A stretch of 56,312 nucleotides of DNA from Prevotella sp. (lineage in GTDB: Bacteria > Bacteroidota > Bacteroidia > Bacteroidales > Bacteroidaceae): the NCBI GenBank assembly GCA_017395215.1, contig JAFPVW010000043.1, positions 1-56,312 of the forward strand, in the 5' to 3' direction. Under the pieces are notes generated by a model, which saw nothing but the letters and a program-made list of their open reading frames with translations, ran no database searches and had not been told where the DNA came from. Each line of letters starts with the position of its first letter. Positions within the stretch are counted from its first letter, which is position 1. The position numbers and the translations under genes are program-made. Positions 36,860-53,889 of this stretch are shown here, in pieces.

Positions 36860-39800
36860 ATGAACCAAAAAAGTACAAACATTCTGCGAGGGCGGCCGTG
36901 GCTGATGCTACTGGCGGTCTTCGCTTGGCTGCTGCCTCAGACGGCGGCGGCCGAGAGGTTCGTTGAGAAGACCTACCAGTATATGGTCATGCTCAACGGT
37001 GCAAACACCATCCGCATCAAGGCCCCCGTCTATGACGAGGACGCGGATGACCACTGGGTGTGCAACGGCAACCTGTATGTGACGTGGACCGACGACAACG
37101 GCACGGAGCAAAAGAAAAGCCTGCTGCACTTCGGATTCAACCACGGATCGACGGGACGAGGCTCCGGCCCGAAGGTGGACGGCCACAGCAACAGCGACTC
37201 CACCGTGCCCATCTTCTTCGCTACGGAAGTGGGCGGCAGCCTGGACATCACGCAGGGCAACACGTCGAACCACTTCTCGCTGAAGAAGGAGGACGGCGAG
37301 CTGCAACGCAGCGTCTATGAGAACAATGACGGCGAGACCTACGAGTTCTCTGCCGTCTGGCGCGTGCCCTACGACATGCTGGGCAAGAAACTGAAGTTTG
37401 AGTGGGGTATCATGATTGACTACACCAACGGCTTGGTATGGGACACGGACTACTCACTGAGTGGTCTGAGTGCCACCGAAATCGACGTGCCGAAAGCTCA
37501 GGACGTGATTTTGCCGCAGCTGACGCAGGCCGCCATGTCGTACAGCATGGAGGGCAAGCTGGAGCTGCCGTGGTTCATGGCGAGCGACAAGGTGACGAAG
37601 GCACGCTATGAATACACCGACCAGTACGGCAAGACGCAGAAAGTGACGTTGCAGCCGAAAGCCACCAGCAGCGTCATCTATCTGGACGCCACGGTGCCTC
37701 ACAAGAACTTCCGCATTGTGGTGAGCTACAAGGACAACCTGGACAACGACATCGAGGAAATCTCGTCGGAGGTGATTGACATTCCCATCATCCACGGACC
37801 CAACGGCCTGACGGTGCGCTCGCTGGGCGACATGAAGTCGAAGATGGAACTGAAGTGGAGCCTTTGGCACACGGACGTGAATGACCTGTCCACCTCGGAC
37901 ATGTTCGTCATTCAGCGCTCGCTGACAGGCAAGGAGGAGGACTTTGAGGAGATAGGCAAGGTGATGTATATGGAAGGCACCACCGCCGACAGTATCTTCA
38001 CCTTCGTGGACAGCACCCTCGTGGAGTCTCTCGCCGAGGGCCATCTGAAGAACGGCGGGACGCTGGACCACCTGACCTACCGCGTGCGCCGCGCCATGAC
38101 CGAGAACTGGGGCTGGGGCACCAATAACAACTGCGCCCGCAGCGTCTCGACCGTGGTCGACGACCTGCACCTGCTGCGCATTGCCAACTACACGGCCAAG
38201 TGGGAGGACGAGCGAGCCTACACCGTGCGCGTGTCGTGGGACTATGCCGACGAGCGTGGCGGCGTGTGGGACGACCGCGCCCAGATGGCGCTGCGCGTCA
38301 TTATGAGGAACCGCGAGGGCGCAGTGGTCGATACCATGCGCTACGTGCTGAACCAGACCGACCGCGAACAGCGCTACAAGGTGTTGACGCTCTTCCGCTC
38401 CTGCGTGAAGTTCGACGTGGATGTCCTCGTGGAGAAGGGCGAGTCGCCACTCAACGACCTGAAGGATGTGACGGCATACTGTTTCCCCATCCGCACGTAT
38501 GACGACTGGGTGGCTTTCCGTGACAAGGTACAGGCTGCTAAAGGTCAGTACGACGTGAATGCCCGCCTCTATGCCGATGTGAATGCCGGTTCCATCATGG
38601 TGGGCTGGACTGAAAGTACCGCCTACCGTGGCTATTTCGACGGTAACGGCCATACGCTGACCTTCAATGTGGGGGACCAGAATAGACAGTACGTTGCCCC
38701 CTTCGCCTACGTAGGCAATGTCACCATCAAGGATCTGCACACGGCAGGTACTATCACTTCCAACCATAAGTTTATAAGCGGTCTCATTGCGAGGGTCAAC
38801 CAAGGCTGCACAGTCAACATTTTAGGCTGTCGCTCATCGGTCACGCTGAACAGTACCGTGAATGGCGATGCCACTAACGGCGGATTTGTGGCTCTCAGCA
38901 ATAGTGGCCATATTTTTATACGCAACAGCAAGTTTGACGGCAGCTTTGAGGGTGACAACTGCAGCCATAATGGCGGTTTCGTAGGCTGGCCATCCTACGG
39001 CACGGTAGCAATCGACAACTGCTTCTTCTCGCCTGCCCATTTCAGCACCAAGATCGAAGGTTGTGCAACGTGGTCACGCACTCCCTCTGCTGATCAAGTG
39101 ACGGTAACGAACAGCTATGCCACCACGGAGCTTACCGACCAGATTAAAAGCATAGTCATCGACGGCAAGACCTTCATGGTGCTGCACAACAATGACGACT
39201 GGATGAGTTTCAAGGAGGCCATTAAGACCAATGATTACACCAACGCCATTTTAGCTAACGACTTTACGGTTAACCATTGTATCGCCTGGGATGGCGAGGG
39301 CACATTCCGAGGCATCTTCGACGGCAACGGCCATACGCTGAATATGGATATCTATGCTGGAAATGCTTCCGCTGTTGGCCTGTTCAAAAATGCCTCAGAC
39401 TATACCATCAAGAACCTGCACCTTACAGGTAAAATCACGGGCGGCCAACACACGGCCGGCCTCGTAGGTAATAGTACTGCTGCCAGCTCAGCAAATCGCA
39501 ACCATATCTACAACTGCCGTGTATCGGCCACTATAGAGAGTAGCGGCTGGGTAGCTGGCGGCTTCATCGGCCGTGGCAATTATGCTGACGTTTTGAACTG
39601 TCTGTTCGACGGCCACATAGGGTGCAGTCAAGAAAAGAGAGATGGTCTTCAGTGGTGGATAGGAGCTTTTTATGGCTACGTTGATGATGGCTTAGCTTGC
39701 TGCGTACAGACAAGTCTGGAGAAAGGCAGCTATAAAGGCGGTACTGAACATATTGGATTGAACATCAAGCCTTGGGATTACTGGGGTAATGGAGAGAATG

Positions 39801-42800
39801 AATGGAACCGCGACAACTGGAGCTATAGCAACTTGCCTAAGACCAAAAACGCAAATGAAGTAGCGGTGGAAGCTATGCTCAGCAATCTGGGTACCGACAA
39901 CTGGCAGATGGTTGACGGAACGGTATTACCCAAGATGGCTACCACCGAGATTATCGGTATTGTCACCCATCCGCTCAGCGATTTCGAACAGTACTACAAA
40001 GACGGCTGGAAGAAGGAAGGCAACACCATCGTACCCGAAACCACAACGATACCCGACCAAGTGTACGCTGAAATCACCAAGCCTGCGCTTCCCGACTTCT
40101 ATCACGCCAGCAACGGTAAGATAGACCCGGAGCTGCTCACCACCACACGCCAGAGCAGCGTGGTGCTGGCCTGGAACACCGACGGCAACCCCATCGACTA
40201 CTTCAAGGTGCTGCGCCGTGTGAAGGGCGAAGGCGACGACAAGTGGGCGGAGGTGGCCACCGGCCTGACCGACATGAGCTATGAGGACAAGACGGTATCG
40301 CCGCTTGCCACCTACGAATACAAGGTGCTCGGCGTGAATGACTGCGAGGGCCGTGACTCGACCGCGACCGAAGTGAAAGTGGGCGAGTGTAAGCACACCG
40401 GCCGCTTGGAGGGCTACGTGCGCTTCAACGACGGCACCAGCGCTCCCGACGTCAAAGTGTCCATCTACTACGTGAAGAGCAACAGGAAGACCTGGGTAAA
40501 GGATGTCACGACGGACGACAGCGGCTTCTTCGAGGCCGACGAACTGTCGTATTACGGCGAACCGTCGGCCGAATACAATGCGAAGGCCGTCAGCGATGAC
40601 AACATCGAGTTCGAGGTGGGCGACTACTCGGTGACGTTCAACGCCACGAGCAACAACGAGGCGGTGCATGAGTTCATCATCACCAACGGCAAGCGCTTCT
40701 CGGGCTTCGTCATGTACGACGGCACGAGCATCCCCGTGAAGGGCGTGAACTTCCTGGTGAACGGCAAGAAGATGCACAACGCCAAGGGCGAGGTGCTGGA
40801 GACCGACTACGACGGCAGCTTCTCGTTCCGCGTGAAGGAGGGCGACAACAAGATCCAGGCGGTGATGGACAAGCACGTCTTCACCAACGACGGCTACTAT
40901 AAGAACTCTGGCGCGCAGAACATCAAGAGCGACGTGGCCGGCATCTACTTCTACGACTCCACGAAGGTGAAGCTGACGGGCCGCATCGTGGGCGGCAACG
41001 ACCAGGGCCTGAAGCCATTAGGCAACAACCTCTCGAAGAACAACCTGGGCGACTCGCTGACGATGGTGCTCACCTTGGAGGGCGACAACACGTCGTGGCT
41101 GGTGTATGACAACCTGAACCCGAACAAGACCGTGCGCGAGGAGGTGGTGCGCCACCCGCGCAACGGCGCCAAGCACTATACGTCGGTGACCACCGAGCGC
41201 AAGCGCATGATGGTATATCCCGACGTGAAGACGGGCGAGTATGTGCTGATGCTGCCGCCCGTGCGCTGGAAGGTGCAGCAGGTTTACTGCAAGGGCTACC
41301 CCACGCTGTTCCAGGAGGGGCAGGTGAGCGAGGTCATCGACCTGACCGACTGCCTCGTCAGCAAGGACACCACCTACGTGGGCACCTTCAAGGACGTGGA
41401 CGCGCAGACGGTCTATCAGCCGAAAGACAGCTTCAATGCCGTGTATAACCGCATCTACCACAGCCCCGTTGAGGTGACCTACAAGCAGATAGTCTACGAC
41501 AACTTCGACTACTTCGGCGACAAGACCTACACGGCCACCAACCTGGCCGGCCAACAGGCCTCAGTGCCACTGGTCTATGCGGTGAAGAAGCCCAACTGGC
41601 CCAGGGAGCTGAAAGACTCGCTGCAGGCCGTCTATACCTTCGACTACCCCGTGTTCAGCTTAGAGCGCCGCTACGGCATCCAGCTGCAGGTGGGCGAACG
41701 CTACCTGTACAACAACGACCTGGCCAGCGGCAAGTTTGACATCGTGCGGCTGCAGGGCGGCAAGGCCTACATGCAGAACGGCATGAAGGCCGGCGCAGAA
41801 AAGGTGGAACAGGAACTGGACAGCCTGGGCCAGACCGTGTTCACGCTGCAAGCCGACCAGGTGACGCAGATGCTGACGGGCCCCGCCGCGCTGCGCACGG
41901 TGACCTTCAGCGTGAAGCGCGACAGCACGTACTTCGAGGCCGAGCCGCTGCACGGCTACGTGCTCAACATGTTTGCACTGGGCTCGGGCCGCGACATCCT
42001 GACCGAGGGCCAGCCCATCCTCTTCGACATCCTGCGCGACCCGCCGGGCGGCTACAGTTCGGCCTCGCTGGCCAAGGGTGCCACCATCAACTACTCGTAC
42101 ATGATGAACCTCTCATTGGCATCCGGCCCCGTGCTGAGCATGACGATAGGCCAGAAGCAAGAGACATTCTTTGGTACCGTACAGGGTAATCTGACCCCAG
42201 CCCAAGTATTTAATGGTGCCACCACTGGCTACAACAGCATCTCTGACAACGGCAGTGCCACGGTGCAGGACTTTGTGTTCAACATGCAGGGCAGCAAGGC
42301 TTACTCTTACACGATGGCTCTCACCAACGCCGTGAGCACCAGCGGCGACCCATCAATGGTGGGTGCCGATGCCGACCTCTACATCGGCACGGTGCAGAAC
42401 GTCACAGTGACGCCCATGTCCACCATCCGTGCCCTGCCCGACTCGATGTACAACGAGCTTCTCAGCCAGATGAGCATCGGCCAAGTGAACACCGACGGCT
42501 ACTTAGCCAAGTACGCCCAGTATGGCGACGTGGTAGAGATAGCCAAGGGTACGAAGATAAACGCAGACGGCAGCAAAGAGGTGTTCCACCTGGTGCGCGA
42601 CCTGTCGTTAGGCTACGGCCCGAAGCTGAAGTCCAACTTCATCTACTCGCAGAAGCAGATCATGACGCAGATCATCCCCGCCAAGGCTAAGGAAATCCTC
42701 AACCTGATGTATACCGGCAGCAAGGCCGAGGCCCAGTCATTGGCCAATGCCACGAAGAAGCCCGTCTATCTGTCGCTGCGCCTGCCTACCGACCCGAATT

Positions 42801-45800
42801 TTGCCCTGCCTAACACGAAGGTGATACCGGGCCATGCCTACAACACGACCATTGAGAAGGCCGAGGACGGCATCAACTACCTCGTAGTGCTGCCGAGCGA
42901 CAAGAAGGAGAGCGACTTCGGCGACGAGGTGAAAGAGAAGTTCCAGATAATCTATGCCTGGGCACAGTTCATTGTCCAGAACGAGCATGAGAAACTGGGT
43001 GCCACCGACCTGGTGAACAACTACGACATTGCCGGTGCTGCGGGCGTGAACTACAGCGAAACCTACGATGCCACCTTCTCGGAGACCACCATGCAGTACT
43101 TCCCCTTCGGCGTACAACCCGACTACTTCGAGACCAGCGCTGCCAGCGGCTCGTGGATGGCAGCCGTCAATGTGGGTTCTACGGCACTCAGCGTTGTTGC
43201 CGCTGTCCTGGAAGGCTTGATAAAGAAAGACCCGACAACAAAAACCAGTAGTAGCGAATGGATAAAAACGAAGTTTAATGGTGAGAAGGTGTCTGATATC
43301 GAGTTCCAAGGCCTGCTGTTCCGTTGGTCACTCGTGCCCGTGGTGTCCATGACGACCGTCGGCACCCGCTCCGAGTCGAAGGGCTACAACCGCACGGAGA
43401 CCTTCACCATTGCCACCGACCCGGCCAGCCACCTGAACGTGGACGTCTATCGCACGAAGCCGGCCAACACCATGACTTCCTCGACGAAGGTATCTGCCAT
43501 GGACGTCTTCACGAACTACAACTTCTATGAGATGTCGAAGAAGGACCTCGAAAAGCTGAGCGGCAGGATGAGTGGTGGCCAGCTGGAGGTTGTGGGTCCG
43601 CGCAGCTTCGTCTATCGCACCCGTGGCGGTGCCACCCAGAATCCGTGGGAGGACAAGCGCGTGACACAGTTCTACCACCCGGGCACCCAGCTCGACGAGC
43701 GCACGCTGAAGATCTGCAACCCGAAGATCAAACTCGACAAGCAGAGCGTGAGCGGCGTGGCCATCAACGATGCGGCCCGCTTCACCATCATCCTGTCGAA
43801 CGAGAGCGAGAAGCCCGAGGCCACCGACGGCCTGAGCATCCTGCAGCTGTTTGCCGTTGACCAGGCTAACCTCAACGGCGCGAAAATCAGCGTCAACGGA
43901 CAGACCCTGACCACCGGCGGCATGAGCGTCACCACCGTGCCGGGCCTGCCTACCATACTGCAGATGGAGGTGCGCGCCGGACAGGCCTTCGACTATGAGG
44001 GCCTGATGATTGGCGTGATGTCGCCCACCGACCCCGAGCACACCTACGACCTGACATCCTTCGACGTACACTTCCTGCGCGAGGCCGGACCGGTGGACAT
44101 CGCAACGCCGGGCGACAAGTGGGTGCTGAACACCAATGCCCAGATGGACTCGAAGCGCGGCTGGTACATCCCCGTCACCATCAACGGCTTCGACCGCCAT
44201 CAGCAGAACTTCGACCACATCGAGTTCCAGTACAAGGAGTCGCAGCGCGGCGACGACTCGTGGACGAACCTCTGCTCGTACTATGCCAGCGACTCGCTGA
44301 TGGCCACGGCCAACGGCGTGAGGAAGCTGATACCCGAGAACGGCAACATCGTGACCGAGTTCTACGGAGAGGGCTGGGTGATGGAGCGCACCTACGACCT
44401 GCGCGCCGTGCTCTTCTGCCGCAACGGCAACGACTTCCTGACCACGCCGTCGAAGATTATCAGCGGCGTGAAGGACACGCGCCGCCCGCAGCTGTTCGGC
44501 ACGCCCGAACCGAAGAACGGCCTGCTGACCTCGGGCGACGACATCGTGTTCAACTTCTCTGAGGACATTGAATACAACTACCTGAGCGCCATCACCAACT
44601 TCGAGGTGAAGGGCGAGGTGAACAACGACAACCTCTCTGAGATGGTCAGCGTGCAGTTTGGCGGCCAGGCCAGCGTAGAGAGCGAGGCCAGGCGCAACTT
44701 CACGGGCAAGGACCTGACCATCGACCTGATGGTGAAGCCCGCCGAGACAGGGCGCGACATGCCGCTCTTCTCCCACGGCACCAACGGCCAGAAGCTGCAG
44801 CTGTGGCTGACGAAGGACTTCTACCTGAAGGCCGTGGTGAACGACCAGACCTTCACGTCTGACTCTGTTATCGGCAAGAACGCCTTCCGCCAGGTGGCTC
44901 TGACCATCAGCCAGCAGGACAGCACGCTGACGTTCTACAAGGGCGGCGTGCGCATTGGCAGCAGGAAGCTGACGTCACTCTACAACGGCACGGGTACGCT
45001 CATCTTCGGACGTACCAACGAGCTCGACCGCAGCCAGAGCACCTACTACGAGGGCCGCATGATGGAGGCCCGCCTGTGGTACAGCGCCATGGACGGCGGG
45101 CTCATCGGCACGACCTACGGCGGCAAGCGCCTGACGGGCTACGAGAGCAACCTCGTGGACTACTACCCGATGAACGAGGGGTCGGGCGACTACGTCACCG
45201 ACCACACGCAGGGAGCCAACGCACGGCTGATGGGTGCTTCGTGGGCCATCCCACGCGGTCTGTCGCTGCACTTGGAGAAAGCCGACAAGGGTGTGCTGCT
45301 TGACAAGAACGCCATCAACCGCACTAACGAGCACGACTACACGCTGATGTTCTGGTTCAAGACCGATGCCGACGGACGAGGCGCGCTGCTGAGCAACGGT
45401 CGCGGACTGAAGGAAGACATCGGCGCACAGAACCTGTACCACATCGGATTCGAGGGCGACAAGCTGATGTATCGCTCGAACGGCTTTGCTACTGAGGTGC
45501 CGGGCGACTGGAGCGACGGCCAGTGGCACAACTTCGCCATGACGGTAAACCGTGCCCGCAACGTGGCCAATATCTATGTAGATAAGGAACTGCGCACCAC
45601 CTTCGAGGCCGACTCACTCGGCGGCATCAGCGGCGGCTATCCGCTCATCGGCGCCACCCGCTACGACGTGCTGAAGGAGAACGGCGACGTGGAGACGAGG
45701 GATGGCGACGACGCCCTGAGGGGTAACGTTGACGAACTGATGTTCTTCGCACAGGCACTGCCCCAGCAGCTCATCAGCACCTACGCCACGAAGAACCCCA

Positions 45801-47920
45801 ACGGCGACGAGAGCGGTCTGCTGACCTATCTGTCGTTCGACCGCATAGAGCGCCAGAGCGACAACGACCTCGAACTGGTGCCCTACGCCTACAGCAAGAA
45901 AATCTACCTGGACGACAAGGGCCAGCCGCGCTATCAGCTCGACCCGCTGACGAAGGAGCCCACCGGCACGTTGGTGCGCGACTACCTGTTCGCCGACGAG
46001 ATGGACGCCGTGCTGGCACACTTCGACCGGACGCAGGCAGCACCCGTGGTGCCCTACGAGGAGGTGAAGAACCTGAAGTTCGGCTTCATCGGACGCGGCA
46101 ACCAACTGCTCGTGGAGCTTGACGAGCATGCCGCCCGGCTGAACCACCGCAACATCTACGTCACGGTGCGCGACATCGAGGACAAGAACGGCAACACGCT
46201 GGCTTCGCCACAGACGGCCTGCTACTACGTGACCAACAGCAGCCTGCAGTGGCTGGTGAACCGCCTGGACGCCACTATTAAATATGGTAGCGGCGAGAGC
46301 TGTGAACTGCTGTTCTACAACAACGGCGCACAGAACCACACCTACACCATCGAGAACTGCCCCCGCTGGCTCAAACTCGACAAGTACACCGACGTGATGG
46401 CACCGCAGAGCTTAGACTATGTCACAGCAACGGCCAGCAAGGACCTGAACATCGGTACGTACAACGAAATCATCTATCTGACCGACGAAGAGGGCATCAC
46501 AGAGCCGTTCTACCTCAACCTGACGGTGGAGGGCGAGCAGCCCGACTGGGCCAAGAACGTGGAGGGCGACCTGCTGCAGCACTCGATGAGCATCAGCGGA
46601 CAGGTGTATCTCTATGATGAGCTGGACACCGACACGCGCGACATCGTGGGCGTCTTCGACGACGAGAACCGGTGCCACGGCTTTGCTAACATCAGCCACG
46701 ACGCCGCAACGGGCGAGAACGACCTCTTCCTGACTGTCTATGACGACCAGGCGAGCGGGCGCGCACTGAACTTCCGCCTCTGGCAGTACAGCACGGGCCG
46801 CGAGATTCTGCTGACGACAAAACCGGCCATCACGTTCGAGCAGTCGGCCGTGCTGGGTACCGAGACTCCCGTGCGCTTCGACGGCCGTGAGAGCTTCGTC
46901 CAGAACTTCAGCCTGAAGGAGGGCTGGAACTGGGTGTCGTTCAACGTCAGCAGCCCGCAGCTCAGCGACGTGAACAAGCTGCTGAGCGGCATGGCCTGGA
47001 GCGACGGCGACATCCTGACGGACCTGAGCAGCAACATGACGCTGACCTACGAGAAGGAGCTGAAGCAGTGGATAGCCACCGACAGCGTGCAGAACATGGC
47101 CATCTCGCCGAAGAACGCATACGCCATCAGGGTGGGCAGGGACTGCACATTCCCCATCGGCGGCACCGTCGTCAAGGATGAGGCCGGACGCACCGTCACC
47201 CTGAAGGAGGGCTGGAACGGCATCGGCTACACGCCGGTGACGAACCTGAGTGTGGAGACGGCCCTGAGCGACTACTATGACCTAGCCGAGCCGGGCGACG
47301 TCATCAAGAGCCACACGGAGTTTGCCTACTTCACCAAGGCGGGCAACGTCGGACGCTGGCGCGGCAGTCTGCAGTATCTGAAGCCGGGCGAGGGCTATAT
47401 GATGCTACGCAAGGCCAAGGACGATGCGTCGTTCACCTATCCGTTCTACGAGCTGGGCAGCAACTTCCGTGAGGACTGGTCAGTCGGCGCAAGGCGCAGC
47501 CCCGCCCCGAAGTCGCCCAGCACGATGAGCGTGAGCGCTGTCATCGAGGGCTTCGAGTTTGAGGACGGCGACGTCCTGGTCGCCTACAGCAACGGCGAGG
47601 CCGTCGGCGAAGCCACTACTGTCAGCGGTTCTCCCGCCGACACCCGCGAGCCGCTCTACCTGAGCATCGCCGGCGACGCACAGCAGCCAATCTGGTTCGC
47701 CATCGAGCGCGACGGTGAAATCGTTGCCACTACCGGCGAAATCATGAGCTTCAAGAGCAACGCCGTCGTCGGCAGTCCCGACGAGCCGACGTCCATCAGA
47801 TTCGTCCGCTCCGCCTACGAGGACGGCTACTGGTACACCACTAACGGCCTGAAGCTGCAGCGCAAGCCGACGCGCAAGGGCATCTACATCTATAATGGTA
47901 ACAAAATCGTGATTAAGTAA
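36860..47920 (+). CDS. Giant secreted multidomain protein (LamG, GLUG-like, T9SS sorting tail)
   Basis: 3,686 residues. Signal peptide (about 1-31, LLPQTAAA). In rough order: strand-rich N-terminal domain; FN3-like domain (about 316-430); two GLUG-like helix regions opening at FDGNGHTL (about 590-770, 815-1000); FN3-like domain (1093-1180); two or three CnaB/carboxypeptidase-like folds (GRLEGYVRFNDGTSAPDV, 1181-1420); a long unrecognised central region (1430-2300) with one hydrophobic stretch near 2105-2125 (VGSTALSVVAAVLEGL); two LamG-like jellyrolls (about 2613-2750, 2800-2960); a module shared with the next gene (about 3257, 3570); two LKEGWNW/LKEGWNG repeats; and a T9SS type-A tail (LQRKPTRKGIYIYNG). 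Probably exported by T9SS to the surface as a carbohydrate-binding or adhesive protein. No catalytic motif was seen. Confidence 0.9.
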   Translation: MNQKSTNILRGRPWLMLLAVFAWLLPQTAAAERFVEKTYQYMVMLNGANTIRIKAPVYDEDADDHWVCNGNLYVTWTDDNGTEQKKSLLHFGFNHGSTGRGSGPKVDGHSNSDSTVPIFFATEVGGSLDITQGNTSNHFSLKKEDGELQRSVYENNDGETYEFSAVWRVPYDMLGKKLKFEWGIMIDYTNGLVWDTDYSLSGLSATEIDVPKAQDVILPQLTQAAMSYSMEGKLELPWFMASDKVTKARYEYTDQYGKTQKVTLQPKATSSVIYLDATVPHKNFRIVVSYKDNLDNDIEEISSEVIDIPIIHGPNGLTVRSLGDMKSKMELKWSLWHTDVNDLSTSDMFVIQRSLTGKEEDFEEIGKVMYMEGTTADSIFTFVDSTLVESLAEGHLKNGGTLDHLTYRVRRAMTENWGWGTNNNCARSVSTVVDDLHLLRIANYTAKWEDERAYTVRVSWDYADERGGVWDDRAQMALRVIMRNREGAVVDTMRYVLNQTDREQRYKVLTLFRSCVKFDVDVLVEKGESPLNDLKDVTAYCFPIRTYDDWVAFRDKVQAAKGQYDVNARLYADVNAGSIMVGWTESTAYRGYFDGNGHTLTFNVGDQNRQYVAPFAYVGNVTIKDLHTAGTITSNHKFISGLIARVNQGCTVNILGCRSSVTLNSTVNGDATNGGFVALSNSGHIFIRNSKFDGSFEGDNCSHNGGFVGWPSYGTVAIDNCFFSPAHFSTKIEGCATWSRTPSADQVTVTNSYATTELTDQIKSIVIDGKTFMVLHNNDDWMSFKEAIKTNDYTNAILANDFTVNHCIAWDGEGTFRGIFDGNGHTLNMDIYAGNASAVGLFKNASDYTIKNLHLTGKITGGQHTAGLVGNSTAASSANRNHIYNCRVSATIESSGWVAGGFIGRGNYADVLNCLFDGHIGCSQEKRDGLQWWIGAFYGYVDDGLACCVQTSLEKGSYKGGTEHIGLNIKPWDYWGNGENEWNRDNWSYSNLPKTKNANEVAVEAMLSNLGTDNWQMVDGTVLPKMATTEIIGIVTHPLSDFEQYYKDGWKKEGNTIVPETTTIPDQVYAEITKPALPDFYHASNGKIDPELLTTTRQSSVVLAWNTDGNPIDYFKVLRRVKGEGDDKWAEVATGLTDMSYEDKTVSPLATYEYKVLGVNDCEGRDSTATEVKVGECKHTGRLEGYVRFNDGTSAPDVKVSIYYVKSNRKTWVKDVTTDDSGFFEADELSYYGEPSAEYNAKAVSDDNIEFEVGDYSVTFNATSNNEAVHEFIITNGKRFSGFVMYDGTSIPVKGVNFLVNGKKMHNAKGEVLETDYDGSFSFRVKEGDNKIQAVMDKHVFTNDGYYKNSGAQNIKSDVAGIYFYDSTKVKLTGRIVGGNDQGLKPLGNNLSKNNLGDSLTMVLTLEGDNTSWLVYDNLNPNKTVREEVVRHPRNGAKHYTSVTTERKRMMVYPDVKTGEYVLMLPPVRWKVQQVYCKGYPTLFQEGQVSEVIDLTDCLVSKDTTYVGTFKDVDAQTVYQPKDSFNAVYNRIYHSPVEVTYKQIVYDNFDYFGDKTYTATNLAGQQASVPLVYAVKKPNWPRELKDSLQAVYTFDYPVFSLERRYGIQLQVGERYLYNNDLASGKFDIVRLQGGKAYMQNGMKAGAEKVEQELDSLGQTVFTLQADQVTQMLTGPAALRTVTFSVKRDSTYFEAEPLHGYVLNMFALGSGRDILTEGQPILFDILRDPPGGYSSASLAKGATINYSYMMNLSLASGPVLSMTIGQKQETFFGTVQGNLTPAQVFNGATTGYNSISDNGSATVQDFVFNMQGSKAYSYTMALTNAVSTSGDPSMVGADADLYIGTVQNVTVTPMSTIRALPDSMYNELLSQMSIGQVNTDGYLAKYAQYGDVVEIAKGTKINADGSKEVFHLVRDLSLGYGPKLKSNFIYSQKQIMTQIIPAKAKEILNLMYTGSKAEAQSLANATKKPVYLSLRLPTDPNFALPNTKVIPGHAYNTTIEKAEDGINYLVVLPSDKKESDFGDEVKEKFQIIYAWAQFIVQNEHEKLGATDLVNNYDIAGAAGVNYSETYDATFSETTMQYFPFGVQPDYFETSAASGSWMAAVNVGSTALSVVAAVLEGLIKKDPTTKTSSSEWIKTKFNGEKVSDIEFQGLLFRWSLVPVVSMTTVGTRSESKGYNRTETFTIATDPASHLNVDVYRTKPANTMTSSTKVSAMDVFTNYNFYEMSKKDLEKLSGRMSGGQLEVVGPRSFVYRTRGGATQNPWEDKRVTQFYHPGTQLDERTLKICNPKIKLDKQSVSGVAINDAARFTIILSNESEKPEATDGLSILQLFAVDQANLNGAKISVNGQTLTTGGMSVTTVPGLPTILQMEVRAGQAFDYEGLMIGVMSPTDPEHTYDLTSFDVHFLREAGPVDIATPGDKWVLNTNAQMDSKRGWYIPVTINGFDRHQQNFDHIEFQYKESQRGDDSWTNLCSYYASDSLMATANGVRKLIPENGNIVTEFYGEGWVMERTYDLRAVLFCRNGNDFLTTPSKIISGVKDTRRPQLFGTPEPKNGLLTSGDDIVFNFSEDIEYNYLSAITNFEVKGEVNNDNLSEMVSVQFGGQASVESEARRNFTGKDLTIDLMVKPAETGRDMPLFSHGTNGQKLQLWLTKDFYLKAVVNDQTFTSDSVIGKNAFRQVALTISQQDSTLTFYKGGVRIGSRKLTSLYNGTGTLIFGRTNELDRSQSTYYEGRMMEARLWYSAMDGGLIGTTYGGKRLTGYESNLVDYYPMNEGSGDYVTDHTQGANARLMGASWAIPRGLSLHLEKADKGVLLDKNAINRTNEHDYTLMFWFKTDADGRGALLSNGRGLKEDIGAQNLYHIGFEGDKLMYRSNGFATEVPGDWSDGQWHNFAMTVNRARNVANIYVDKELRTTFEADSLGGISGGYPLIGATRYDVLKENGDVETRDGDDALRGNVDELMFFAQALPQQLISTYATKNPNGDESGLLTYLSFDRIERQSDNDLELVPYAYSKKIYLDDKGQPRYQLDPLTKEPTGTLVRDYLFADEMDAVLAHFDRTQAAPVVPYEEVKNLKFGFIGRGNQLLVELDEHAARLNHRNIYVTVRDIEDKNGNTLASPQTACYYVTNSSLQWLVNRLDATIKYGSGESCELLFYNNGAQNHTYTIENCPRWLKLDKYTDVMAPQSLDYVTATASKDLNIGTYNEIIYLTDEEGITEPFYLNLTVEGEQPDWAKNVEGDLLQHSMSISGQVYLYDELDTDTRDIVGVFDDENRCHGFANISHDAATGENDLFLTVYDDQASGRALNFRLWQYSTGREILLTTKPAITFEQSAVLGTETPVRFDGRESFVQNFSLKEGWNWVSFNVSSPQLSDVNKLLSGMAWSDGDILTDLSSNMTLTYEKELKQWIATDSVQNMAISPKNAYAIRVGRDCTFPIGGTVVKDEAGRTVTLKEGWNGIGYTPVTNLSVETALSDYYDLAEPGDVIKSHTEFAYFTKAGNVGRWRGSLQYLKPGEGYMMLRKAKDDASFTYPFYELGSNFREDWSVGARRSPAPKSPSTMSVSAVIEGFEFEDGDVLVAYSNGEAVGEATTVSGSPADTREPLYLSIAGDAQQPIWFAIERDGEIVATTGEIMSFKSNAVVGSPDEPTSIRFVRSAYEDGYWYTTNGLKLQRKPTRKGIYIYNGNKIVIK

Positions 47921-50332: not shown

Positions 50333-50362
50333 CCGCAGGCCTGCAGCGTCTGCGGTTTTTTT
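50333..50362 (+). terminator. pepD terminator
   Basis: CCGCAG (50333-50338) pairs with CTGCGG (50350-50355), with an inner GC-rich loop, followed by T7. Confidence 0.85.
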
Positions 50363-50371: not shown

Positions 50372-50419
50372 CATGCCGAAAGCGTTGACATTTCGACTGC
50401 TCGCCTGTACTATATACAA

Positions 50420-51268
50420 ATGGAAAGACTGACGACAGACCAGATAGACTCCCTTTACCGTCAGCACCACGAACGCATGGTGCTGACGGCACGCACGCTG
50501 TTAGGCAACGGCGACGAGGCCCGCGACGTCGTCAACGACGTGTTTGCCGATTTGCTCGTCCGCAACAAGCCGCTGGACGACGCGCAGGCTGAGAGCTACC
50601 TCATGGTCTGCGTACGCAACCGTTGCCTCAACCTGATAGAGCATCAACGGATAGTCAGACAGTCAGCCAGTGAAATCAGCTCTGACGGGGATGCTTCTGA
50701 GGAGGGCGAGTACGAGGAGCCGCCCGTCGACGACGTACTCAATTATGTCAGTAGTGCGCTGACCCCCAAGTCGCAGCAGGTCATCGAACAGCACTTTCTG
50801 AAACAGAAGAAGTACCAGGACATTGCCCACGACATGGGCATCAGCCGCTTCGCCGTCTACAAGCACATGACGCGAGGCATCCGCCAGCTTCAGGCCCACT
50901 TTGCCTGGTACCACCTGGTGTTGGCCTTAGTCCTGCTGTCGGGTGCCGTCTTTGCCGTCTGGATGCACTTCAGCCGTCCTGCCCAGCCCCAGCCGACGGT
51001 ACCGGCAACCGCTGTACAGCCTGCCACGCCGACTGCCGAGCCACGTACCATCCGCTACGAGAACGCCACGCTGGAACAGATACTGACCGACATCACTAAA
51101 TATAATAAGGTAGAACTGCGCTTCCTCAACGACGCTCCCAGACAACTGCGGCTGCACTACGACTGGCACCAGGCAGAACCCGTCGCTGACATAGCCGCCA
51201 CGCTCGACGCTTTTGACGGCATCAGTATGGAACTGCGCGATAACACCCTCTACGTGAATAAACCATGA
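50420..51268 (+). CDS. ECF-type sigma factor fused to a membrane helix and a DUF4974-like domain
   Basis: 282 residues. Sigma region 2 at about 8-75 (SLYRQHHERMVLTARTLLG...ARDVVNDVFADLL, YLMVCVRNRCLNLI); an acidic linker (84-105); sigma region 4 at about 108-158 with helix-turn-helix YQDIAHDMGISRFAVYKHMTRG. A single membrane helix follows at 161-184, a Pro-rich linker to 208, and a C-terminal domain (209-281, TIRYENATLEQILTDITKY...DNTLYV) like the DUF4974 domain that normally ends FecR anti-sigma factors. The FecR domain itself is missing. The DNA-binding part would face the cytoplasm and the tail the periplasm. A TTG at 50369 is rejected as a start because it lies in the promoter box. The stop overlaps the next ATG (ATGA). 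Confidence 0.9.
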   Translation: MERLTTDQIDSLYRQHHERMVLTARTLLGNGDEARDVVNDVFADLLVRNKPLDDAQAESYLMVCVRNRCLNLIEHQRIVRQSASEISSDGDASEEGEYEEPPVDDVLNYVSSALTPKSQQVIEQHFLKQKKYQDIAHDMGISRFAVYKHMTRGIRQLQAHFAWYHLVLALVLLSGAVFAVWMHFSRPAQPQPTVPATAVQPATPTAEPRTIRYENATLEQILTDITKYNKVELRFLNDAPRQLRLHYDWHQAEPVADIAATLDAFDGISMELRDNTLYVNKP

Positions 51269-52596
51269 GACACGTCATCATCTTCCTCCTGCTGCTTAGT
51301 ACGGCGTGTACAGCTGGGGCCCAGCGCGTTAGCCGAGACTACCGTGACTGTCCGATGACCACAGTCCTCACCGACCTGAGCCGTGTCTCGACGCGGCAGC
51401 GCATTGTCTTCATCTACAACGACTTGGAGGACTACCTCGTCACCCAGCGCTTCAACTCGCTGACCGTGGCCGAGGCTATCGTCGCCTGTATCGGCCATTA
51501 CCCCATCAAGCTGACCAACCGGGGCGACTCCATCCTGCTCGTGGAGTGCACGCAGCGCCTGCCCTACAAGGTGAAGGGGCTGCTGGTCAACGAGCAGGGA
51601 CAGCCCGTGGCCGACGCCAACATCAGCCTGACAGCCGGCGAAGCCGCCTGCGGACAGAGCATCAGCAACCAGAGCGGGCGCTTCGTCATACCGACCAGTC
51701 AGCCTGAAGGCACCATCCACGTCAGCCACGTCGCCTACAAGCCCGCCAGCCTCCGCTTTTCGGCGGGCGACCTGGGCACCATTCGCCTGGAGGCGGCCAA
51801 CATCAGGCTCGACAGCGTCAGCGTGAAGGCCAGCGTGCCGACCTTAGCCGAGAGCCGTTACCTGAAGTACGCCGACAGGATAGCAAAAGAGGTGTGGCAG
51901 ATGAAGATGCCGCAGTTCCACATCGACACCCTGCCCGCCAAGTACCGGCACGCTGATGCTGTCGTGCTGGCCGACTACGACTGTATAGAGTATCAGCTGG
52001 TCAGCCAGAGCTACCCCGGCATGCCTTTCACCCTTGTCAACTTACACGAGAAGTGGGTCAGCACACTCCACCTCCACCGCAGCCGCTATTACGTCAACAG
52101 CCCCGAAGCCGCCCGCAGACTGTCGGCAGTGAGCTTCTCGCGCCTGACCGACATCACCGACGTCACCTTCCACAAGACTACGGTCATGGGCATCAGGGTG
52201 ATCAGTCCTGACGGCAGCACGCGCACCGTGAACACCTGGCCCTACTTCAAGCCCAAGGCCAGAAGCCGCGCGACCGCTGCCAACGCTACCGACACCATAC
52301 GCCTGGCGCGGCTGGAGCCAGGCGACATCCTCGACGTCTTCATCTATCACCGCTTCGAGGAGCCAATGTCTCCGTACGAGCTGAAACTGCCTGCCCGCTA
52401 CCCCGTGCTCTACTACGAGGGCAGAGCCGTAGCCGACCGCAAGCTGCACCTCATGCACCGAGAGACCGGTACCCTGGGGCACAAGACGACTGAGGAGAAC
52501 GACGGGCGCGACGTGATAGTCTACACCCAGAGCGACTACGACCAGCCGCCGGCGACCGCCGCCAGCGTCACCGTGGAGGTAAACCTGAAGAAATAA
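51265..52596 (+). CDS. Envelope protein with STN-like and carboxypeptidase-like domains, no TonB barrel
   Basis: 443 residues. Signal peptide (to about 19, CTAGAQ). Residues 24-95 resemble the secretin/TonB short N-terminal domain (STN): VLTDLSRVSTRQRIVFIYND...RGDSILLVE. Residues 100-180 are a carboxypeptidase-like regulatory fold (VKGLLVNEQGQPVADANISL). In SusC-type receptors a plug and barrel would follow; here the rest (185-443) is a soluble strand-rich domain with RHADAVVLADYDCIEY, ISPDGSTRTVN and LARLEPGDILDVFIYHRFEEP, which reads like DUF3857. Probably periplasmic. Translationally coupled to the sigma fusion and plausibly its signal partner, since STN domains touch FecR C-termini in classical systems. 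Confidence 0.8.
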   Translation: MRHVIIFLLLLSTACTAGAQRVSRDYRDCPMTTVLTDLSRVSTRQRIVFIYNDLEDYLVTQRFNSLTVAEAIVACIGHYPIKLTNRGDSILLVECTQRLPYKVKGLLVNEQGQPVADANISLTAGEAACGQSISNQSGRFVIPTSQPEGTIHVSHVAYKPASLRFSAGDLGTIRLEAANIRLDSVSVKASVPTLAESRYLKYADRIAKEVWQMKMPQFHIDTLPAKYRHADAVVLADYDCIEYQLVSQSYPGMPFTLVNLHEKWVSTLHLHRSRYYVNSPEAARRLSAVSFSRLTDITDVTFHKTTVMGIRVISPDGSTRTVNTWPYFKPKARSRATAANATDTIRLARLEPGDILDVFIYHRFEEPMSPYELKLPARYPVLYYEGRAVADRKLHLMHRETGTLGHKTTEENDGRDVIVYTQSDYDQPPATAASVTVEVNLKK

Positions 52597-52608
52597 CATA
52601 CAGACACA

Positions 52609-53244
52609 ATGAAGCATAAGACAAAGAACCACATACGAGCAGTACTGCTGCTACTGACAGTACTCGCCTGGCAGCAGGCCGCGGCTCAGTCGGCGGAAAC
52701 GCCGACAGAGCCGACGGCGAAAAAGAAGAAAGTGCTGAACACCATCCTGGCCGACTTCAACACGGGCTGGATCACCTCGGAGGTGACCACCCCCGAAAAC
52801 ACCTTCAAATGGCGGAACGGCCAGGGCTTCGGAATCAGCTACCGGCGGCTGCGCAACGATGGCTACGGCATCGGCCTCGACTTTGCCCACAGCGCCTCCA
52901 GCTACCCCTCGCGGTCCTACGGCGGCGAGTACCACCTGAATGCCAACTACTACGGCGTCTCGCTCCTCTACGGCGGTTTCCTCAGCCAGAAGTTCATCGC
53001 CACCGTCAGCATCGGCGCCGGGTGTGCCTACACTTTCGGCAGCGACGAAAGCAACGTGGGCTTCGGACTGAAGCAGGCCATCGACGTGGAATACCAGCTG
53101 ACCCCGTTCGTCGGCATCGGAGCCGGGATCGACCACTTCATAAACATCTCAACCCAGCAGCAGCCCAACGGCTACGAAAAGAAATACGCCATCAACGGCT
53201 TCAAGCGGCTGGCACTCCACGCCGGACTAAGAGTGTACTTTTAA
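52609..53244 (+). CDS. Small outer-membrane beta-barrel protein
   Basis: 211 residues: signal peptide (AAAQ near 27), a short Lys-rich spacer, then alternating Gly/aromatic strands (GFGISYRRL, YGIGLDFAHS, ANYYGVSLLYGGFL, FVGIGAGIDHF) ending in LHAGLRVYF with a terminal Phe, as expected for an eight-strand-type barrel. Ligand unknown. Third gene of the sigma-fusion cluster, 12 bases after the STN protein. Confidence 0.82.
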   Translation: MKHKTKNHIRAVLLLLTVLAWQQAAAQSAETPTEPTAKKKKVLNTILADFNTGWITSEVTTPENTFKWRNGQGFGISYRRLRNDGYGIGLDFAHSASSYPSRSYGGEYHLNANYYGVSLLYGGFLSQKFIATVSIGAGCAYTFGSDESNVGFGLKQAIDVEYQLTPFVGIGAGIDHFINISTQQQPNGYEKKYAINGFKRLALHAGLRVYF

Positions 53245-53259
53245 AACATCATCAGCAAT

Positions 53260-53889
53260 ATGAAACACATCATCCTACTATTCACCCTCCTGGCTGCCAC
53301 ACTGGCAGGCCAGGCGCAGAGCAGCTACTGCCTGACGTTCGACGAATACGCAGCCGGCACGTGGCACCAGCTCAGCCAGCTCGAACTGCAATACCGCTCG
53401 GGCAACAAGTCGCTCTGGAACGGCGGAGCCAGCTACAAACCCGTGACAGGCGACAGCAAGACCGACAAGACGCTGAAGAAGGACGCCTGCCTCATCATGC
53501 ACAACGACTCGCTCTACATCAACTGCCGCGGCCTGACGTGCCAGGGCGTGGGCTTCGGCAACTGGTATGCACCGGCCTACGTCTTCGACCGCGACTACTT
53601 CCTCTTCACGGCACTGAGTCTCAAGGCCAAGAAGTCGACAGCCAGGTCGGCCTTCTGGTTCGGCATCGTCGGCGGGGCCATCGCGGCGGCCAACCACAAG
53701 GACGAGTACATGTGCTACATCTTCTATCCCAACTCCGAAACGGTGAAAGCCGTTGACCAGAAAATGATGTACCAACTGCTGGAGGACCACCCCGACCTGC
53801 GCAGCAACTACGACGACATGGTGGGCGACGACGCCGACTGCTCGCCTCAGACCGTCATCCCGCTGCTGAAGAAAGCCGGCCTCATCTGA
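53260..53889 (+). CDS. Secreted protein of unknown function
   Basis: 209 residues. Signal peptide MKHIILLFTLLAATLAGQAQ, then a mixed domain beginning SSYCLTFDEYAAGTW and a short hydrophobic glycine-rich stretch (FGIVGGAIAAA, about 130-140) that may be a membrane-insertion or helix-packing segment. The C-terminal 60 residues are helical and acidic (LLEDHPDLRSNYDDMVGDD). Similar proteins of Bacteroidales are uncharacterised. It lies 15 bases after the barrel gene and closes the first part of the cluster. Confidence 0.75.
   Translation: MKHIILLFTLLAATLAGQAQSSYCLTFDEYAAGTWHQLSQLELQYRSGNKSLWNGGASYKPVTGDSKTDKTLKKDACLIMHNDSLYINCRGLTCQGVGFGNWYAPAYVFDRDYFLFTALSLKAKKSTARSAFWFGIVGGAIAAANHKDEYMCYIFYPNSETVKAVDQKMMYQLLEDHPDLRSNYDDMVGDDADCSPQTVIPLLKKAGLI

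Follow-up and report, generated by a model that had tools for sequence, protein, structure and literature searches.

A fused ECF sigma factor, membrane helix and FecR_C domain in Prevotella: a probable one-chain regulator of cell-surface signalling

Introduction

The closest described design is that of IutY from Pseudomonas putida, in which an ECF sigma domain, one helix and a periplasmic FecR-like domain form a protein that is activated by Prc and RseP (PMC5411451, PMC9249621). IutY is given as 374 residues long and is classed as ECF243 in a review. Its region 4 ends at residue 164 and a sigma-only truncation at residue 168, before the helix (PMC5411451, PMC9249621); because this truncation ends where it does, IutY seems to have no separate anti-sigma domain. 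The FecR-like periplasmic region comprises about 190 residues, as estimated from truncations, with two subdomains by analogy with PupR, and the partner is IutA, a TonB-dependent receptor for aerobactin. The accounts of IutY drawn on here call it unique.

Within the Bacteroidota, Dma3 of Bacteroides thetaiotaomicron, a member of the dual membrane-spanning anti-sigma family, carries a sigma domain at its own N-terminus (PMC13088901). Dma proteins (Dma2 and the family) combine a long disordered tether with an outer-membrane barrel at the C-terminus, and the parts of that report used here do not mention a FecR_C tail (PMC13088901). A C-terminal membrane extension with proposed proteolytic activation has also been described for ECF48, ECF52 and ECF53 (SCO4117) (PMC8999054).

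The protein described here is encoded in a stretch of 56,312 nucleotides from Prevotella sp. (assembly GCA_017395215.1, contig JAFPVW010000043.1, forward strand; hereafter the window). A first-pass annotation had proposed that the protein is an ECF sigma factor tethered to the membrane, with a DUF4974-like receiver, and that it represents a compact variant of signalling across the envelope; the analysis supports that reading. The further suggestion that such a system is undescribed stands in part: the kind is already known through IutY and Dma3, and the Prevotella protein is a smaller variant with another partner. Like IutY, it joins a sigma factor, a single helix and a FecR-type receiver, presumably periplasmic, in one chain; unlike IutY, it has a tail of about 100 residues with the STN-like part only, belongs to another phylum, has two or more separate origins in the Prevotella genus and, in two of its groups (A and B, below), is accompanied by a protein of 433-637 aa. 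With Dma3 it shares the phylum and an N-terminal sigma domain on a membrane-spanning regulator (PMC13088901), but its chain ends after FecR_C, with neither the long tether nor the barrel. As in the FecI-FecR-FecA and PupI-PupR-PupB systems, the regulator's STN-like domain would face that of the partner (PupR:PupB structure, PMC7186176); unlike the fusion, these systems have a separate sigma factor, an anti-sigma domain, a juxta-membrane subdomain and a TonB-dependent receptor. ECF48, ECF52 and ECF53 differ in coming from Actinobacteria and in keeping a zinc-finger anti-sigma domain, and the sections of their description used here do not mention FecR_C or an STN partner (PMC8999054).

In the open-licence literature, as far as its texts were available, no description of a comparable fusion, whether from Prevotella or with DUF4974, was recognised. 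As far as the literature above shows, the FecR_C-only form, the short partner and the probable one-promoter loop are new, as are, within the same scope, the repeated origin within one Bacteroidota genus and the pair of split and fused forms at one locus.

Domain Organization of the Fused Protein

The fused gene (50420..51268; this and all following features of the window lie on the + strand) starts with an ATG at 50420 and runs through 282 codons to a stop at 51268. The open frame and the Pfam matches bear out the 282-residue chain with sigma regions 2 and 4, one helix and a DUF4974-like tail that had been proposed. Region 2 occupies residues 12-77 (50453..50650; PF04542 Sigma70_r2, 31.1 bits, cut-off 24) and region 4 residues 113-158 (50756..50893; PF04545 Sigma70_r4, 30.8 bits, cut-off 24.1; PF08281, 30.5 bits, likewise above its cut-off). 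With both regions above their family thresholds, the protein classes as an ECF sigma factor. TIGR02937 scores 63.7 bits (cut-off 42.9); the Bacteroidetes subfamily TIGR02985 gives the best score, 92.7, yet stays below its cut-off of 126.4.

Five residues beyond the end of the sigma match lies the only hydrophobic 19-mer of the chain, a predicted membrane helix at residues 166-184 (50915..50971; Kyte-Doolittle mean 2.28 over the 19 residues), which aligns with the helix of separate anti-sigma proteins. The layout is presumably N-in/C-out, with the sigma domain in the cytosol and the tail in the periplasm. The presumed periplasmic receiver, an STN-like FecR_C domain (PF16344, which we take to be the former DUF4974), covers residues 211-279 (51050..51256). 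Positions 2-70 of the 70 in the profile are aligned, at 15.5 bits, below the cut-off of 24.4; the first four orthologues (12.9-21.8 bits) and the fusion at L068 (16.0) likewise fall short of this value, which the fusions at L070 (38.1 bits) and L072 (29.9) exceed. At E<=0.1, FecR_C is matched in 17 of 19 fusions, and regions 2 and 4 in all 19. The full-length alignment and the two scores above the cut-off argue against the objection that the tail might have no similarity to DUF4974. A search of the tail family against solved structures gave nothing meaningful (best E 0.49, to unrelated proteins). Across the fusions, a linker of 17-37 residues leads from the helix to FecR_C, which then stands alone, and the sigma domains hold residues that are invariant in all 19 sequences. 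An internal start that would produce a separate tail protein was considered and appears unlikely by eye, because the window protein has no conserved Met codon in that vicinity.

Comparison with Separate Anti-Sigma Proteins

The telling loss in the fusion is that of the cytosolic segment before the helix. In 19/19 fusions the helix follows the sigma match after a gap of 2-10 residues (median 5), whereas in 45/45 separate anti-sigmas it is preceded by 46-123 residues (median 71); these 45 are neighbours of related sigma genes, taken as longest frames, so some of the lengths may be too long. Many of them start with a recurring LLxMxEHPExY-like sequence, as judged by eye. Since the helices align and the gaps differ in this way, the chain can be read as a sigma factor plus an anti-sigma minus the cytosolic part. 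The position of the pre-helix segment in the separate proteins makes it the presumed anti-sigma domain; the fusion thus has no recognisable anti-sigma domain, and the anchor itself may be the lock.

The first-pass annotation had pointed instead to a missing FecR domain. PF04773 indeed has no match in the window protein, but it has none in the whole genome of the window either (85% complete), and its loss was therefore rejected as a special trait of the fusion. In all 45 separate anti-sigmas FecR_C starts before residue 190, which leaves no room for a FecR solenoid, although longer FecR proteins could be missed by the profile of such proteins with which these were found. Three separate anti-sigmas of the window's genome that could be read (L037, L038, L039) also show the order helix, linker, FecR_C. 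FecR_C has seven matches in this genome, one of them in a 1041 aa frame that is probably a partner protein, because it lies directly behind another FecR_C match.

The split mini systems of the genus consist of a sigma factor and a helix-FecR_C protein of 171-265 aa, several with an STN partner of 836-865 aa; for some pairs, the stretch examined held no STN partner gene. Sigma domain, helix and tail are homologous to those of the fusion, and the gene order is the same in several systems, but there are two chains, of which the second has the 46-123 residues before its helix. In three genus genomes (G347, G353, G340) a split system takes the place of the fusion at the same locus, between M20 peptidase and CorA genes, with a sigma factor of 160 aa, a helix-FecR_C protein of 183-194 aa, a partner of 836 aa and the same kind of promoter motif. 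A different genus of this family likewise has a split sigma gene behind the M20 gene (L103, G745). The 836 aa partner at L097 has carboxypeptidase-regulatory-like domains and no match to a barrel family, and an 854 aa partner at L040 matches OMP_b-brl_3 at 187.9 bits.

Occurrence, Selection and Number of Origins

The same layout was seen in two genus genomes, at 54-57% identity, among the first relatives, and fusions at 53% identity occur in two named Prevotellaceae metagenome assemblies, which recur in later samples as G275 and G345 and are counted once. A third match of the named-genome scan (L033; 21% identity over residues 7-184 only) is not a fusion. A profile built from five fusions found full-length, stop-free forms in 19/398 sampled genus genomes, the window's included; a broader profile of all 19 recovers the same 19, and the lowest-scoring fusion (321 bits) is well separated from the best separate sigma factor (218 bits). 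In samples of the family (399 genomes), the phylum (395) and the order (334), the window's own gene was the only fusion found; these samples include the window's genome and some of the same genus, and they overlap. The family search used a group A profile, and the 6-7 best first-look candidates per genome were scored, so distant independent fusions outside the genus may be missed.

The measurable pairs of fusions show purifying selection. Whole-gene dN/dS is 0.08-0.32 in six measurable pairs out of seven (the seventh is saturated, and two pairs have few changes), with values below 1 in each part of the gene; two close pairs give 0.22 (L061/L062) and 0.28 (L072/L074). A sequencing or assembly error joining two genes, a concern raised by the first-pass annotation, can be set aside with near certainty. 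Nothing was found in favour of it, and it is contradicted by the open, full-length frames in 19 genomes, by the same locus in ten of them, by dN/dS below 1 and by four orthologues that share 51-55% identity with the window protein over its length.

Before any tree was built, the fusions were sorted by neighbourhood and score into group A (10 fusions, the window's included), A2 (G309), B (5), C (2) and D (1). The tree of sigma domains comprises 64 of 79 rows, the other 15 being left out since no FecR_C gene was found beside the sigma gene in the stretch examined. A single origin of all fusions is rejected by the AU test (p 5.2e-05), as is a clade of groups A and C (p 1.6e-08); a clade of A, A2 and B is not rejected (p 0.139). 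The last two combinations were picked after the trees had been seen, a practice against which the note to the AU test warns. The rejection of a single clade implies at least two independent fusion events, unless fissions are assumed. Groups A and B may represent one event, since A+A2+B is not rejected and both have the short partner.

Operon and Partner Protein

Checked by tblastn with the window's proteins, the neighbourhood of group A is conserved. An M20 peptidase gene lies upstream in 10/10, directly before the fusion except in G345, where the distance is about 1.2 kb; the partner follows in 10/10, a small barrel protein and a DUF6563 protein are each present in 9/10 (not in G345), and a CorA gene in 9/10 (not in the stretch of G175 that was examined). 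A2 occupies the same peptidase locus, with one other gene between fusion and partner. The gene beside the group B fusions presumably encodes acetate kinase. Groups C and D lie at other loci and have longer partner frames (775 aa, with an uncertain start, and 885 aa). A relative of the partner follows 19/19 fusions.

The partner of the window (51265..52596, 443 aa) has a start codon that overlaps the stop of the fused gene (ATGA, 51265). It has a signal peptide, as judged by eye, an STN-like N-domain, a CarboxypepD_reg-like domain (E 1.9e-06, 28.5 bits, cut-off 32.3) and a DUF3857-like C-terminal part (E 0.016, below the cut-off). Because its own N-domain has no Pfam match, the STN label rests on profile comparison and on relatives: hhalign relates the partner N-domain family to the FecR_C family (probability 58, E 9.9e-05), and among 14 partner N-domains PF16344 matches 3 (best E 0.00072) and STN 1 (E 0.0098). 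Comparison of the N-domain with solved structures gave nothing useful. No barrel family matches the partner of the window or that at L102 (637 aa), the two fusion partners that were scanned. In place of the SusC-type receptor with STN that the first-pass annotation took as the standard partner, the locus thus has this 443 aa STN-like protein beside a small predicted outer-membrane beta-barrel of 211 aa (52609..53244; PF13505, E 2.9e-05, 24.8 bits, cut-off 28.7). The gene for a DUF6563 protein of 209 aa (53260..53889; PF20201, 143.7 bits) likely belongs to the same operon.

Some minor features accompany these genes. In G013 (L034:1724-3526, 600 aa) and G345 (L102:3043-4956, 637 aa) the partner is longer and carries an additional part at its C-terminus. 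An inverted repeat, CCGCAG/CTGCGG, and a T run behind it are visible by eye downstream of the M20 peptidase gene of the window (50333-50362), likely a terminator that separates this gene from the sigma operon. Further upstream, a single frame of 3686 codons (36860-47920) encodes a very large protein, predicted to belong to the envelope or the cell surface.

Promoter-Like Motif

The presumed target of the fused sigma factor is a promoter-like motif, GTTGACATTT-N12-TGTACTAT (50384..50413), which ends 6 bases before the ATG. It differs at one position from GTTWRCATTT-N12-TGTACTAT; this pattern was itself drawn from these sites, so that its searches inform only on how nearly absent the motif is elsewhere. 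GTTRRCATTT-N12-TGTACTAT, or a sequence near it with constant N12, lies upstream of the ten group A fusions, of A2 and of four split sigma genes of the same clade; three further split sigmas of that clade (L075, L078 and L080) have the motif, and two of the wider clade (L076 and L077) do not. It is absent upstream of groups B, C and D (6/8 operons inspected), where other sequences are found.

The window's genome has one match at <=2 mismatches, and the backward control none. In 11 genomes, chosen for carrying the fused (9) or the split (2) form, there are 12 matches at <=1 mismatch, each just upstream of a fused or split sigma gene. The same holds for each such match among all loci examined, many of which overlap and were chosen for those sigma genes. 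Four further matches at 2 mismatches in the 11 genomes, fewer than the eight of the backward control, were for that reason not counted as a wider regulon. The motif follows the sigma clade, whether fused or split, which argues that the tethered sigma factor still reaches its promoter; together, motif and fused sigma probably form a closed autoregulatory loop. Since the -10-like element ends 6 bases before the ATG (region 50406-50422), the mRNA may be leaderless. This distance is also 6 bases in G175 and 10-23 in other group A operons.

Proposed Mechanism

The fusion appears as a one-chain regulator of cell-surface signalling of the IutY design, further reduced. That the tether holds the sigma factor inactive, and that partner contact and intramembrane proteolysis free it, is the reading favoured here, with moderate confidence. 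It builds on the domain order, the missing cytosolic segment, the linkage to the partner, the motif and the M50 and S41 protease genes seen in the sequence. The helix, almost directly after region 4, would carry the sigma domain into the inner membrane and leave the STN-like FecR_C tail in the periplasm. Lacking a recognisable anti-sigma domain, the protein would be kept off by the tether itself, with region 4 pinned at the membrane, or with the tail shielded by the partner. The STN-like N-domain of the partner would dock on the tail in the periplasm, partner and small barrel standing in for a TonB-type signalling receptor. Altered contact would make the tail accessible to a periplasmic protease of the S41/Prc type, after which an M50 site-2 protease of the RseP type would cut the helix and free the sigma factor with a short stub. 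Once free, the sigma factor would act on the promoter that lies 6 bases before its own start codon and so amplify the operon.

Such steps have precedents. IutY is cut by Prc and then by RseP, which frees the sigma factor, and partial periplasmic deletion activates it (PMC5411451, PMC9249621). In the Fox system the signalling domain of the receptor shields FoxR from proteolysis, and overproduction of the IutA signalling domain blocks IutY processing (PMC11637429). The membrane-proximal or the STN subdomain of PupR alone does not bind the partner, possibly because it is unfolded (PMC7186176), a point against simple transfer to the shorter, STN-only tail. In FecI-type systems the N-terminal fragment of the anti-sigma is described as capable of pro-sigma activity, which the fusion could not use because it has no such fragment. 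The window's genome encodes one M50 gene and five S41 matches; as these families are widespread (M50 in 14/14 and S41 in 10/14 control genomes), their presence proves nothing specific.

Alternative Explanations

The tethered sigma factor might instead act in place, in a ToxR-like manner: the tether would be permanent, the partner would alter clustering or conformation, and recruitment of RNA polymerase to one operon would take place at the membrane. The single motif match of the genome lies directly upstream of the factor's own operon, so free diffusion to many promoters would be unneeded; that operon encodes predicted envelope proteins, and region 4 meets the helix almost directly in 19/19 fusions. 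To our knowledge, no sigma factor works while embedded in the membrane. Truncated IutY variants that retained the helix, moreover, required RseP for activity (PMC5411451, PMC9249621), and action in place is therefore considered rather unlikely. Similarly unlikely, if wider in reach, is a class of integral-membrane sigma factors inhibited by the tether alone, the anti-sigma domain being absent from at least two independent fusions in one genus, and in which the single-promoter regulon of group A drives its own envelope operon, possibly through transcription by a membrane-embedded sigma factor.

Control in trans, with a separate mini anti-sigma supplying the anti-sigma domain and the fused tail adding only localisation, would draw on the five further FecR_C matches in the window's genome outside the fused gene and the long partner frame, and on G175, where a fused system coexists with a related split one and both have a promoter motif of the same kind. 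Four of the five, however, adjoin sigma genes of their own (C69, C126, C199, C3), the fifth is truncated at the end of its contig, and no free anti-sigma gene was seen in the fusion operon, which makes such control improbable. The idea that the fusion is a broken or unregulated remnant, its sigma factor constitutively active or inactive, finds a parallel in a decayed fusion in a relative (L053:3292-3768); it is more doubtful still, given the low dN/dS of the whole gene and of each part, the invariant sigma residues, the promoter motif kept by group A and the two or more independent origins. Tethering followed by proteolytic release remains the preferred reading.

Implications and Further Observations

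A solution like that of IutY recurs in a second phylum, where it arose at least twice and in each case lacks the cytosolic segment of the separate anti-sigmas, so it becomes testable whether membrane holding alone silences a sigma factor that has no anti-sigma domain. The split and fused forms, with the same locus and the same kind of motif, provide a natural matched pair, and with only one predicted target the output is simple to follow.

The product of L053:3292-3768 (G024), 159 aa, combines about the first 20 sigma residues with an anti-sigma helix and FecR_C. It adjoins an intact-looking copy of the operon and looks like a deletion product, which hints at how fusions arise. In G175 (C2 and C108; L085, L100) the fused system and the related split system have similar promoter motifs, and since both occur in one genome, the two sigma factors may cross-regulate. 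The window's genome also encodes a second membrane-tethered sigma factor in a separate gene (L182:1108-2619, G000:C25; 503 aa), with a sigma domain, a hydrophobic stretch directly after region 4 and an Ala-rich tether. From the likeness of its layout to that of L050 (560 aa, with an OMP_b-brl_2 match), it would be a Dma3-like protein with a C-terminal barrel.
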